Of a stretch of 36,327 nucleotides of DNA, positions 29,619-35,183 are shown piece by piece. The translations under genes were made by a program, and so were the position numbers. The stretch comes from Candidatus Bathyarchaeota archaeon. GTDB lineage: Archaea > Thermoproteota > Bathyarchaeia > Bathyarchaeales > SOJC01. The notes under the pieces are model-generated. The model made no database searches and had not been told where the DNA came from. It was given only the letters and a program-made list of their open reading frames with translations. Within the stretch, counting starts at the first letter, position 1. Each line of letters begins with the position of its first letter. Where the stretch lies: contig SOJC01000100.1 in the NCBI GenBank assembly GCA_004376645.1, forward strand, positions 1-36,327, given 5' to 3'.

Positions 29619-30269
29619 GTGCCTCTGAGAATCGACTTGCACGTGCACACTGTGCACTCCGTTGATTCTTTCATTACAGCGAAGGAGTTAGCTTTCTTCA
29701 TGAAGAAACGAGGGTTAGACGGAGTCGCCATAACTGATCATGACACGGTTAGTGGTTTTAGGGAATTTAGGAAGAAGCTTGACATGCTTCTTATTCCAGG
29801 AGTTGAGGTTTCTACAGGTCAGGGACACGTTTTAGGTATTGGCGTGGAGAGAATGGTTGAGGCTGGGCTGTCTTTTGCGGAGACGATTGATCTCATTCAT
29901 GATGCCGGTGGCTTAGCGATAGTTGCTCATCCCACTGCGTTCTTCAAGGGAATCCCGGAGGAAAGATTGGATGAAGGGTTTGACGGGATGGAAGTAGTTA
30001 ACGCTTCTGCTGTACCCTTCCATTATTCGGTGCGGAAGAACAGGATGCTGGCGGTTAAGCTTGATCTTCCTCAGACTGGAGGGAGCGATGCCCATTATGG
30101 GCCGGAGGTGGGGATGGGATATTCTTTGGTGGATGCAGATGGAGAAGTTGATGAGGTTATCGGGGCGATTAGGAGGGGGGCAGTGAAGCCCTTTGGTAGG
30201 GGTATTCCTTGGAGTACGAGGGTGAAAAGAGGGTTCTACAATTTTAAGAGGTTAGTGGGGAAGCTTTAG
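29619..30269 (+). CDS. PHP-domain metal-dependent phosphoesterase
   Basis: RIDLHVHTVHSVDSF, AITDHDTVSGF, GVEVSTGQGHVLGIG, GSDAHYGPEVG. Confidence 0.92.
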   Translation: MPLRIDLHVHTVHSVDSFITAKELAFFMKKRGLDGVAITDHDTVSGFREFRKKLDMLLIPGVEVSTGQGHVLGIGVERMVEAGLSFAETIDLIHDAGGLAIVAHPTAFFKGIPEERLDEGFDGMEVVNASAVPFHYSVRKNRMLAVKLDLPQTGGSDAHYGPEVGMGYSLVDADGEVDEVIGAIRRGAVKPFGRGIPWSTRVKRGFYNFKRLVGKL

Positions 30270-31321
30270 AAGTTTTCCAGTTGGTGTAGATCTAGATCTA
30301 TTGGTAGTTTTTTCTCTCGTGTTGAGTAGGGTTCTAGGTTGAAGAGTTGTGGTGTTATGGTGCTTAGGTTTGTGGTGGGGTTTGGTGGGTTGATTCCGGT
30401 TATGATGACGGTGACTCTGAATCTGCCGTTGAGTTCAGGGTCTACTTTGGCGCCCCAGATTAGGGAGTTGCTTCTCATGCTTTCAGTTATGAAGCTCTGC
30501 AGGTGATCGACTTCATCGACTGTTATGGATCTGTTGCCTGTGACGTGCACTATTGTGTGGAGGGGTTCCGCAGGGTTGGTGTTGATTAGTGGGTTGTGTA
30601 GGGTGTTGCAGGCTGCTTCTTCCGCGTTGTTTAGGGTGGTTGACTCTCCAATTCCTACTAGTGCGGCTCCGCCTTTCTCGAAGAGGGTTCCGATGGTGAC
30701 GGGGTTGTCCTGGTTTGGGTTTGAGAGGACTTCGATCATGCTCTTTATTATTGTAGCTGAGACTTGTTGGCTGATTGGCTTAGTTTCTTCTGTTGGAATT
30801 TGAGGTAGCTGCTGTTTTAGTGTTTTGTCGTCGATTAGTATTGTCGTGTCCCATTGTTGTCTGAATTTGACAAGTTTAGATTTGCTTTCTGCGTTTTGTG
30901 GGGGTGTTGTTATTACGCCTACTATTGTCGTGTCTTTTCTTTGCGCGGCTTGTGTGATGACTGTTGCGATTTCGCATTCTGTGTTGTTTTCTAGGTTGGT
31001 GGTGAGGAATATGATGTCTGTTTTGTCGAGTATGGTTTCTAGTTTGGGGGGTGTTGTGGTCTGGTTGGCGGGTTTGATGTTGATTAGTATTTTGTGGTTT
31101 GCGTGTGAGTTGTTTATTAGTTTGGGGTTTGTGGTGATGATTGCTGTGGGGGTTGTTGTGGGTTTTGTTTTTGTTAGTTGTGTGATTGTTTGGTTGCCGT
31201 GTTCGCTGATGCCGATGATGAGGGTTTTGGGGTGGGTTGGTTGTTGTGTGGTGTCGGCTTGTCTGAGGGTGCCTTGCCATCTTGGTTGTAAGGCTTTGTT
31301 AGTTTGTTTTTTGCCAGCCAT
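30266..31321 (-). CDS. Divergent FtsZ-superfamily protein with degenerate GTPase motifs
   Basis: GGAALVGIGESTTLNNAEEAACNTLHNPLI, IVHVTGNRSITVDEVD, LIWGAKVDPELNGRFRVTVIITGI match FtsZ; T4 loop GGGTGTG is replaced by ENNTECE. Confidence 0.85.
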   Translation of the reverse strand: MAGKKQTNKALQPRWQGTLRQADTTQQPTHPKTLIIGISEHGNQTITQLTKTKPTTTPTAIITTNPKLINNSHANHKILINIKPANQTTTPPKLETILDKTDIIFLTTNLENNTECEIATVITQAAQRKDTTIVGVITTPPQNAESKSKLVKFRQQWDTTILIDDKTLKQQLPQIPTEETKPISQQVSATIIKSMIEVLSNPNQDNPVTIGTLFEKGGAALVGIGESTTLNNAEEAACNTLHNPLINTNPAEPLHTIVHVTGNRSITVDEVDHLQSFITESMRSNSLIWGAKVDPELNGRFRVTVIITGINPPNPTTNLSTITPQLFNLEPYSTREKKLPIDLDLHQLENF

Positions 31322-31469
31322 TTCTATTCCTCTCCCAAACCTCTGTGGTTAGCATGTCTCTTATGGCGTTGCGTATTGCTTCTGCCCTGTTTGGGTAAAA
31401 TTGCTCGTTTACAAGTCGGTCGAGTGCTCGTAGGTATGGTTCGGGGAGATATAGGGTGATGAGTTTTAT
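31299..31469 (-). CDS. Ribbon-helix-helix (CopG/CdrS-like) DNA-binding protein, not in the ORF track
   Basis: Manual translation: (I)KLITLYLPEPYLRALDRLVNEQFYPNRAEAIRNAIRDMLTTEVWERNRNGWQKTN*; SD GGAGG at 31479-31483; no standard start in frame, ATA at the Met position; overlaps the ftsZ-like start. Confidence 0.75.
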   Translation of the reverse strand: MKLITLYLPEPYLRALDRLVNEQFYPNRAEAIRNAIRDMLTTEVWERNRNGWQKTN

Positions 31470-31520
31470 TGTTTTTTGCCTCCTTTTCCTTTCTGGGGGT
31501 GTGGTGTTGTTGAATGGTGT

Positions 31521-31573
31521 TTTGCAGTTATATCTCTATATAACATACTGCAAACATGCTTCAAACATGTTTG
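31521..31573. promoter_or_regulatory. Nested palindromic promoter/operator region of the RHH-ftsZ-like operon
   Basis: TTTGCAG 31521-31527 / CTGCAAA 31548-31554; GTTATAT CTCT ATATAAC 31527-31544; CAAACATG direct repeats at 31551 and 31562 (11-bp period); palindrome CAAACATGTTTG 31562-31573. Confidence 0.65.
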
Positions 31574-31686
31574 TGTTTCCGCTTTTAAGACTTTCCCCTG
31601 TTTCCTATCTCTGTTCGTGTTAAAGGCTCTGGAGTGAAGAATGTTTATGTTTTTGTTTGTGACTTAAAGATGTAAATTTTGATGAT

Positions 31687-33084: not shown

Positions 33085-33384
33085 GTGAGAAGAGTTTTGG
33101 TTCAAGTGCTGAGTCAGTTGAAGTCATCTCATAGGGGACGGCTAGATATTATCGCGACTATTCTGCGTTCAACTATGATTGGTGCTAGGAAGACTTCAAT
33201 TATGTACCGGTGTAATCTGAGTTTTAAGCAGTTGGAGTTTTATTTGGGCTTTCTCTTGAGGAAAGGCCATTTGACGATGTCCACCAAGTCTAGAGGGAAT
33301 AATAGCAGGTTTTTTGAGACTACGGAGAAGGGATTGGGTTTCTTGCGGGCTTACCGCAACTTGGAAGAGTTAATGTCCAAGTAG
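33085..33384 (+). CDS. Winged-helix regulator, HTH_45-like
   Basis: ARKTSIMYRCNLSFKQLEFYLGFLLRKGHL...FFETTEKGLGFL. Confidence 0.8.
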   Translation: MRRVLVQVLSQLKSSHRGRLDIIATILRSTMIGARKTSIMYRCNLSFKQLEFYLGFLLRKGHLTMSTKSRGNNSRFFETTEKGLGFLRAYRNLEELMSK

Positions 33385-33400
33385 TTTCAGTGTGTCTGTG

Positions 33401-33610
33401 TTAGATTTTTTTTAAGAATTCAGTGAAGGCTTTTGAGAGTCTCGCTTTCTTCTGTTGCCGGTTGAGTTCGAGGAAGGAGAAGGCTGAGAGGAAGTTGGTG
33501 AGGAGTTCTATTTTGCACTCGTGGAGTTTAGATTTTTGGCTGATCTCTCTTATGGAGTGCCACTTTCCGTCTTTGAGCATCTCAAGTGCATTGTCGATAC
33601 GTTTGTGCAA
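33401..33610 (-). CDS. Small winged-helix-like DNA-binding protein
   Basis: RIDNALEMLKDGKWHSIREISQKSKLHECKIELLTNFLSAFSFLEL. Confidence 0.65.
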   Translation of the reverse strand: MHKRIDNALEMLKDGKWHSIREISQKSKLHECKIELLTNFLSAFSFLELNRQQKKARLSKAFTEFLKKI

Positions 33611-33783
33611 CGGAGTGGCCCCGTCATAGCCTTTCAGCTTTGTGGGCTTAAATAATTTCTGAGGGCTTCTTTCAGAAGAGTCTTCTAGAAGTTTATGCTA
33701 GGTTGTTGTGGGCGGGGAGTTACGTTTTTATAATTTTGGGTTGTTGTTATAGGTTTGTTATGTTCTATGTTTTAGGTTAGGGG

Positions 33784-34047
33784 TTGGTGTCGATGGTTCG
33801 GAGGAGTAGGGTGGAGGTTATTGTGGATATTCTTACGGAGACGTTGGAGGGGGCTAATAAGACGAGGATTATGTATAGGGCTAATTTGAATTTTATGCGG
33901 TTTAATTGTTATCTCTCTGAGCTGGTTGAGAATGGGTTGTTGGTTGCGGAGGATGGTGGTGGTAGGCGGGTTGTTTACCGGGTTACGGAGAGGGGGAAGA
34001 CTTTGTTGGAGACGTTGCGTAAGGCTCAAGGGTTTATGGCTGTCTAG
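33784..34047 (+). CDS. Winged-helix regulator, HTH_45-like
   Basis: ANKTRIMYRANLNFMRFNCYLSELVENGLLVAEDGGGRRVVYRVTERGKTLLETL. Confidence 0.8.
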   Translation: MVSMVRRSRVEVIVDILTETLEGANKTRIMYRANLNFMRFNCYLSELVENGLLVAEDGGGRRVVYRVTERGKTLLETLRKAQGFMAV

Positions 34048-34192
34048 CGCGTTATTCTCTGATGGTTGTTTTTTTGAGTTTCTGGTTGCTTCGCGTGTCG
34101 AGTTTTTTTGTGTTTGAGGATCTTTGGTCTAGTGTTTTATGGAGAGTGTTCTATTAAGTAATTATAGAAGGTCTGTTCTAGACTAATGATCC

Positions 34193-34237
34193 AGAACAAT
34201 CGCACTAATACTTTTATAAATTAGTGAACATTGTTCT
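34193..34237. promoter_or_regulatory. TATA box flanked by a two-arm perfect inverted repeat
   Basis: AGAACAAT-cg-CACTAAT-acttttataa-ATTAGTG-aac-ATTGTTCT; TTTATAAA at 34213-34220. Confidence 0.8.
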
Positions 34238-34307
34238 ATTGTTAAATCTATGGTGAAAGATGGAGGAATCTCAGGAGAAGATATAATTACCTGGGGATTG
34301 AGGAGTA

Positions 34308-34754
34308 ATGGAAGATTCTTGTCCGCCCCCGTCAGGGAGGGATTGTATAGGGAATGCGCCGGATTGGAAAGGTTTCGTGGAAGAGCTGAGGCAGCAGTGG
34401 ACAACACTGTGGAGGGAGCGGATAGACGACAAAGTCCGAGCAGAAGGAATCGCGGATAAGAACTTTGAACTACTTTTCGTGGATAAGGGCACCGTGATAG
34501 TGGCGACTAGACACTACAAGCCTTTGGAGTTCAAGGAGATCCTTGAGGAGTATGAGGCTCCATACGAAGTTAAAGTTAAAGAGGAGAGGCCTCTTCCCCA
34601 TGTTGGTGGGTGGAGGAAGTTCGGGAGACATATGGCCAGGCGGGCTAGAAGTCGAAGAATGTTGTGGTTGGAAGATAACTCGAAGAAGGGAAGGAACGAG
34701 AATCTGCAGCTGAAGAAAGGCGGGAGGGGCTGGCTGCACCTTAATACAAAGTGA
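34308..34754 (+). CDS. Hypothetical protein (148 aa), basic C-terminus
   Basis: Longest ORF downstream of the palindromic promoter; no family recognised. Confidence 0.5.
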   Translation: MEDSCPPPSGRDCIGNAPDWKGFVEELRQQWTTLWRERIDDKVRAEGIADKNFELLFVDKGTVIVATRHYKPLEFKEILEEYEAPYEVKVKEERPLPHVGGWRKFGRHMARRARSRRMLWLEDNSKKGRNENLQLKKGGRGWLHLNTK

Positions 34755-34823
34755 AAGAAACAGTTTCAGTGTCTGTGTAATTCGCGTGTGGTTTTTTCTG
34801 TTTAGAGTTTTAGAGGGTTAGTT

Positions 34824-35183
34824 GTGGCGAGGTATAGGAGGCGCCTTCAAATTATTGCAGAGATTCTAGAGATTGTTAGGGGTGGTGCTCGAAAAACCCA
34901 TATTATGTATAAGGCTAATTTGAGTTACAAGTTGCTGTGTAAGTATCTTGATGAAGTTCTCGCGTGTGGATTGGTGCGTGTGGGTAGGGATGAGTGTTAT
35001 GTGGTGGCTCCGAAGGGAGAGAAGTTTCTCCAGAAGTTCTATTTGTATTTGAAGAGGCGGGAACGGGTGCATGAAGAGCTGAAGGCGGTGGATGAAGAGA
35101 AAGCTCTGCTTGAACATAAGTATATGAATGCCCGTGCTAAGGCTGGCCACACCAACAGTAAGGGTCTCATGAGGAAACGGTAG
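34824..35183 (+). CDS. Winged-helix regulator, HTH_45-like, with charged C-terminal extension
   Basis: RRLQIIAEILEIVRGGARKTHIMYKANLSYKLLCKYLDEVLACGLV...YVVAPKGEKFL. Confidence 0.82.
   Translation: MARYRRRLQIIAEILEIVRGGARKTHIMYKANLSYKLLCKYLDEVLACGLVRVGRDECYVVAPKGEKFLQKFYLYLKRRERVHEELKAVDEEKALLEHKYMNARAKAGHTNSKGLMRKR

Follow-up and report, generated by a model that had tools for sequence, protein, structure and literature searches.

A CdrS-like ribbon-helix-helix gene with a likely near-cognate start overlaps the gene of a probably GTPase-dead FtsZ-like protein in a bathyarchaeal genome

We find that a small ribbon-helix-helix (RHH) frame on the minus strand of the window (the whole stretch of 36,327 nucleotides of Candidatus Bathyarchaeota DNA analyzed here) is a CdrS-like protein gene, and that it overlaps a gene whose product is predicted to keep the FtsZ fold and has lost the nucleotide motifs. 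With moderate confidence we read the pair as one overlapping operon, encoding an RHH autoregulator of CdrS type together with a GTPase-dead FtsZ, in which translation would begin at a near-cognate codon, repression would act through an upstream repeat array, and the C-terminal FtsZ tail would be the retained function.

On the minus strand, the reading frame is open from 31535 to 31299, and its translation ends in ...KTIKLITLYLPEPYLRALDRLVNEQFYPNRAEAIRNAIRDMLTTEVWERNRNGWQKTN*, with the stop codon at 31299-31301. Read from an AUA codon, positions 31299-31469 (minus) specify a protein of 56 aa, with KLITLYLPEPYLRALDRLVNEQFYPNRAEAIRNAIRDMLTTEVWERNRNGWQKTN encoded after the ATA codon. The earlier note had proposed an unannotated, possibly CdrS-like RHH ORF here; domain matches, positional homologues and substitution patterns all confirm it, and, provided that translation starts at the ATA at 31467-31469, its coordinates are exact. 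The protein matches Pfam RHH_1 (PF01402) with E=1.4e-6 and 28.4 bits, above the curated cut-off of 20.5, and the whole of it is one RHH_1 domain, as in CdrS (about 55 aa). Among NCBIfam models, NF058555 ("transcriptional regulator CdrS", 9.8e-11) ranks first, followed by NikR (8.5e-8). Since the score of 41.5 bits does not reach the equivalog cut-off of 100 of this haloarchaeal model, we call the protein CdrS-like and not a haloarchaeal equivalog. The nearest solved RHH domain is that of NikR (2bj1, 5.9e-5); membership in that family was rejected, as the C-terminal nickel domain is missing and the protein stops 9 residues past the aligned RHH region. Homologues 73-84% identical lie at the same position in genomes of the same family (named relatives are Candidatus Bathyarchaeota MAGs). 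Over codons 2-49, comparison with seven relatives gives pN of 0.09-0.16 and pS of 0.49-0.85; substitutions so strongly skewed to synonymous sites mark the frame as a protein gene, and the gene is under strong purifying selection.

As the earlier note had observed, no standard start lies in frame: ATG, GTG and TTG are absent from the upstream stop codon down to codon 39, and a canonical start farther upstream was sought back to that stop codon and rejected. Comparison with relatives instead places the start at the AUA codon (31467..31469, minus), where homologues have ATG, GTG or TTG (mostly ATG, with GTG and TTG common). A Shine-Dalgarno sequence, AGGAGG (31479..31484, minus), stands 9 nt ahead of it, with similar spacing in relatives. 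Four relatives carry ACG at the equivalent codon, three of one genus (G036, G042 and G060; g15) and one of another genus in the same family (G091). In G042 a TAG directly precedes the ACG, and neither G036 nor G042 has a canonical start upstream or in the first 18 RHH codons, so that near-cognate initiation is the simplest reading there. AUA at this codon occurs in one MAG only, and the window ATA may be an assembly error or a strain variant; nevertheless, judged from sequence, near-cognate initiation is likely in this single ATA case as well. Near-cognate RHH start codons in five genomes appear to be new.

The ftsZ-like ORF begins at 31321, giving a 23-nt overlap between the two genes that recurs in most relatives of the family; the RHH stop falls inside the ftsZ-like gene, as had been noted. 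The RHH gene thus lies directly upstream of its ftsZ-like neighbor and overlaps it, an arrangement typical of CdrS and conserved in relatives. In fact, the pairing holds throughout the order; relatives therefore do carry RHH homologues upstream of their ftsZ-like genes, and the CdrS-like reading is supported by this synteny together with the best NCBIfam family. The cdrS-ftsZ2 arrangement is conserved in most archaeal groups, with Bathyarchaeota among those examined (PMC7439475), and the operon part of our finding is therefore expected. A literature search, with most subscription journals outside its reach, found nothing specific on bathyarchaeal RHH/FtsZ genes or on archaeal AUA/ACG starts.

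The partner is an FtsZ-like protein of 351 aa (30266..31321, minus), identified by domain search, alignment and structural modeling. Its FtsZ C-terminal domain (PF12327, 2.9e-18) is the sole FtsZ_C match in the window genome, and the Tubulin domain PF00091 has no match anywhere in that genome. In the alignment, ENNTECE (30971..30991, minus) takes the place of the GTP-binding signature GGGTGTG, the loop before the signature is also lost, and the T7 catalytic loop N-x-D-x-x-D is absent, INLDFADF being replaced by DN--PVTIG. The description of this FtsZ as degenerate is thereby borne out, and the loss of both motifs means that dynamic GTP-driven filaments are not expected of it. The fold itself is predicted to be kept: the AlphaFold model (pLDDT 72, pTM 0.71) is of FtsZ/tubulin type and its best PDB match is M. 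jannaschii FtsZ (E=3e-23). The best conserved part is the C-terminal tail LFNLEPYSTREKKLPIDLDLHQLENF with its preceding residues (319-351; 30269..30367, minus). Identity to the long FtsZ copies of 18 relatives is 36-73% in the tail and 23-35% in the GTPase part, and for the two most decayed copies (G004, G011) 42% and 15-18%, respectively. pN/pS is below 1 along the whole gene.

Among 96 genomes with the RHH copy, the partner gene encodes an intact FtsZ carrying GGGTG in 41, a long FtsZ that lacks the GTP-binding motif in 9, including the window genome, and a tail-only protein of 62-108 aa in 45 (loci include L063-L065, L069-L076, L083 and L085-L128; two loci duplicated in the source tables were counted once). 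In 95 of the 96, with G027 cut by a contig end, the gene following the RHH gene finishes with the tail motif LFNLEPYxEPEKPLxIDLGLYQME or a variant. In the remaining genome (G069, L134), two RHH copies are present, and all that follows one of them is the short fragment IAPNIFNIKLYIELKKQLKVDI, a decaying FtsZ tail; no tail was detected in G028, which has a diverged RHH and stands outside the 96. A profile built from intact FtsZ tails finds all 45 short proteins, 42 of them below 1e-3 (best E 8e-14, worst 0.005), with 0.05 as the best of 900 shuffled proteins. No Pfam or NCBIfam model recognized the tail-only proteins tried, and a folded one shows a single helix and no globular domain (pLDDT 59, pTM 0.18). 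The tail-only form is found in two families (f6, f7) whose remaining N-termini differ, which suggests that it arose more than once. Decay of FtsZ along such a series while the RHH pair persists appears to be new.

No FtsZ_C domain was found in the assemblies of 33 of the 45 tail-only genomes. SepF is present in 31 of these 33 and ESCRT-III in 32; 25 are at least 90% complete, with SepF in 24 and ESCRT-III in all 25. The window genome itself encodes SepF, along with two ESCRT-III proteins. In archaea the SepF-binding site of the FtsZ tail surrounds a near-invariant GID motif (PMC8178401), and the bathyarchaeal tail, centered on DLGLD or DLGLYQ, resembles this motif. Since all of FtsZ but the tail is lost and SepF is kept, SepF binding is the best guess for the tail, and the retained product is probably the tail as a SepF ligand.

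Several further observations concern FtsZ-related genes in these genomes. G002, a genome of the same family in a single contig and 92% complete, encodes SepF and ESCRT-III but lacks FtsZ_C and the repeat array, and its RHH matches are all weaker; the complete operon has apparently been lost. In some relatives a second FtsZ paralogue (L038, L043, L044, L047, L048, L051) has GGGTGTG and no SepF-like tail; its C-terminus is a basic stretch, hydrophobic in part, which may attach directly to the membrane. Proteins of about 800-900 aa in family f7 (G092:C2:45993, G040:C89:2299, G055:C3:219293 and others) match Tubulin weakly and partially (positions 76-156), occur in genomes with and without FtsZ, and are possibly a tubulin-like family.

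Upstream of the RHH gene lies a triple 11-bp direct repeat, CATGTTTgaagCATGTTTgcagTATGTTA (31541..31569, minus), a putative RHH operator seen in the sequence and in relatives. A palindrome, TTATATAGAGATATAA (31528..31543, minus), with similar sequence in relatives, abuts and partly overlaps the third repeat, and a TATA-like box, CTTAAAAG (31582..31589, minus), likewise present in relatives, stands 20 nt ahead of the array. The upstream regions share direct repeats of CATRTTT at 11-bp spacing, three units long. Across 95 of them, CATRWT hexamers are spaced by 11 bp 136 times, by 22 bp 52 times and by any other distance at most 4 times; the strict two-unit pattern occurs in 76 of the 95 and a looser one in 83, the latter in 24 of 19,600 shuffles. 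The distance from the TATA-like box to the start of the array is 18-21 nt in 76 of 81 cases, so the array should lie over the transcription start.

Of 121 genomes, 49 carry the strict three-unit pattern, each a single time and at the RHH locus (in one of them, G025, the contig breaks off ahead of the RHH gene), and a reversed control pattern has no occurrence in the same search. The two-unit pattern, too, has just one occurrence in the entire window genome, at the RHH locus. Six genomes without the RHH copy (G001, G002, G008, G038, G066, G081) have no site. A wider regulon was rejected, as neither the window genome nor the 48 other array-carrying genomes hold a second copy of the array. An array present once per genome, always at the RHH locus, suggests a dedicated autoregulator, and we infer that the RHH protein would be an autorepressor of its own operon and would regulate the ftsZ-like gene. 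Such a single-locus operator appears to be new. Elsewhere in the window, three separate HTH_45 winged-helix genes lie within 2.1 kb (33085-35183).

RHH proteins commonly bind such repeat arrays as cooperative dimers. In the mechanism we propose, the RHH protein would be initiated weakly at the near-cognate AUA behind a strong Shine-Dalgarno sequence, and its cooperative dimers would occupy the three 11-bp repeats, about 20 nt past the TATA box and over the transcription start, so repressing the operon. The second product, with the FtsZ fold and without the GTP-binding and T7 motifs, would not assemble into dynamic filaments driven by GTP. What is retained would be the conserved tail, through which archaeal FtsZ is anchored to SepF, and its predicted SepF binding, with constriction probably carried out by ESCRT-III (CdvB). 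More tentatively, in a large part of Bathyarchaeia, where the body of FtsZ would be gone and SepF and ESCRT-III kept, the FtsZ tail could serve as a stand-alone adaptor linking SepF to ESCRT-III division under the same RHH autoregulator and operator, the window organism, whose GTPase-dead FtsZ is nearly full-length, representing an intermediate.

Other explanations concern each element of this proposal. That the RHH frame is a chance ORF could draw only on its lack of a standard start codon; its Pfam and NCBIfam matches, positional homologues and pN/pS speak against it, and the conservation and selection of the frame refute it, leaving a negligible probability. A second alternative is that the gene, real in relatives, is dead or mis-assembled in the window, its ATA being a lost start or a sequencing error for ATG. 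The codon rests on a single MAG, is one base from ATG and adjoins a decaying FtsZ; however, ACG occupies this codon in G036, G042, G060 and G091, each time after a strong Shine-Dalgarno sequence, G036 and G042 share with the window the lack of any canonical start upstream or within 18 codons, and the remaining gene, Shine-Dalgarno sequence and operator are intact and conserved. We therefore hold this explanation to be unlikely, and retain near-cognate initiation as the preferred reading.

It is about as unlikely that the repeats serve as operator for a different regulator, such as a second, CdrL-like RHH paralogue, and that the CdrS-like protein acts elsewhere in trans. Such a paralogue, at about 52% identity, is present in most genomes, and Halobacterium CdrL binds only upstream of cdrS-ftsZ2 (PMC7439475). 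Yet the site adjoins the FtsZ-type RHH gene only and is absent from six genomes without that copy, and a single-site regulon best fits a self-regulator. (At L131, L136, L137, L138 and L139 a gene that by eye resembles orotidine phosphate decarboxylase lies near this paralogue; a 70-aa piece of it gave no Pfam match.) Less probable again is a working, divergent FtsZ that polymerizes by another chemistry, with the tail-only genes as debris. Retention of the FtsZ fold and pN/pS below 1 over the entire gene would fit it, but the GTP-binding and T7 motifs are lost just as in the FtsZ of Nitrosopumilus, which does not polymerize (PMC3684127), and 45 tail-only ORFs keeping the tail at E values down to 8e-14 are unlike debris. 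Autorepression of a GTPase-dead FtsZ with a retained tail remains the reading we prefer.

The locus bears on how archaea switched between FtsZ and ESCRT-III division. It offers a graded natural series, from working FtsZ through GTPase-dead FtsZ to the tail alone, under one conserved regulator and operator; the series points to the part of FtsZ that persists once the filament is gone, and to SepF as its candidate partner. The RHH gene would also offer a clean example of near-cognate AUA/ACG initiation in archaea, a type of start missed by ORF callers.

Among known systems, small archaeal RHH cell-cycle regulators of the aCcr1 type are only weakly matched (NCBIfam, 0.0029, well below cut-off), and NikR shares the closest solved RHH domain with the 56-aa protein, which is devoid of its nickel-binding part. 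The complex of archaeal SepF with the FtsZ C-terminal domain (PMC8178401) involves an acidic/hydrophobic tail around GID, similar to the DLGLD or DLGLYQ found here alongside SepF; in contrast to that complex, the tail is a separate small protein in 45 relatives, and its binding is a prediction. The FtsZ of Nitrosopumilus maritimus (PMC3684127) likewise has no GTP-binding motif or T7 loop, in a host with ESCRT-III/Cdv, whereas the bathyarchaeal gene is linked to a CdrS-like gene and belongs to a graded series ending in the tail alone. In Halobacterium and Haloferax, the CdrS-FtsZ2 operon (PMC7439475, PMC8406309) likewise encodes a small single-domain RHH_1 protein directly upstream of ftsZ. There, Haloferax CdrS has been linked to activation rather than autorepression and has 18 sites, whereas here the putative operator is at a single locus, the start is near-cognate, and the partner is GTPase-dead by motif loss, or tail-only in relatives. 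The CdrS-FtsZ pair itself is known; what merits follow-up is the tail-only series, together with the single-locus operator and near-cognate initiation.
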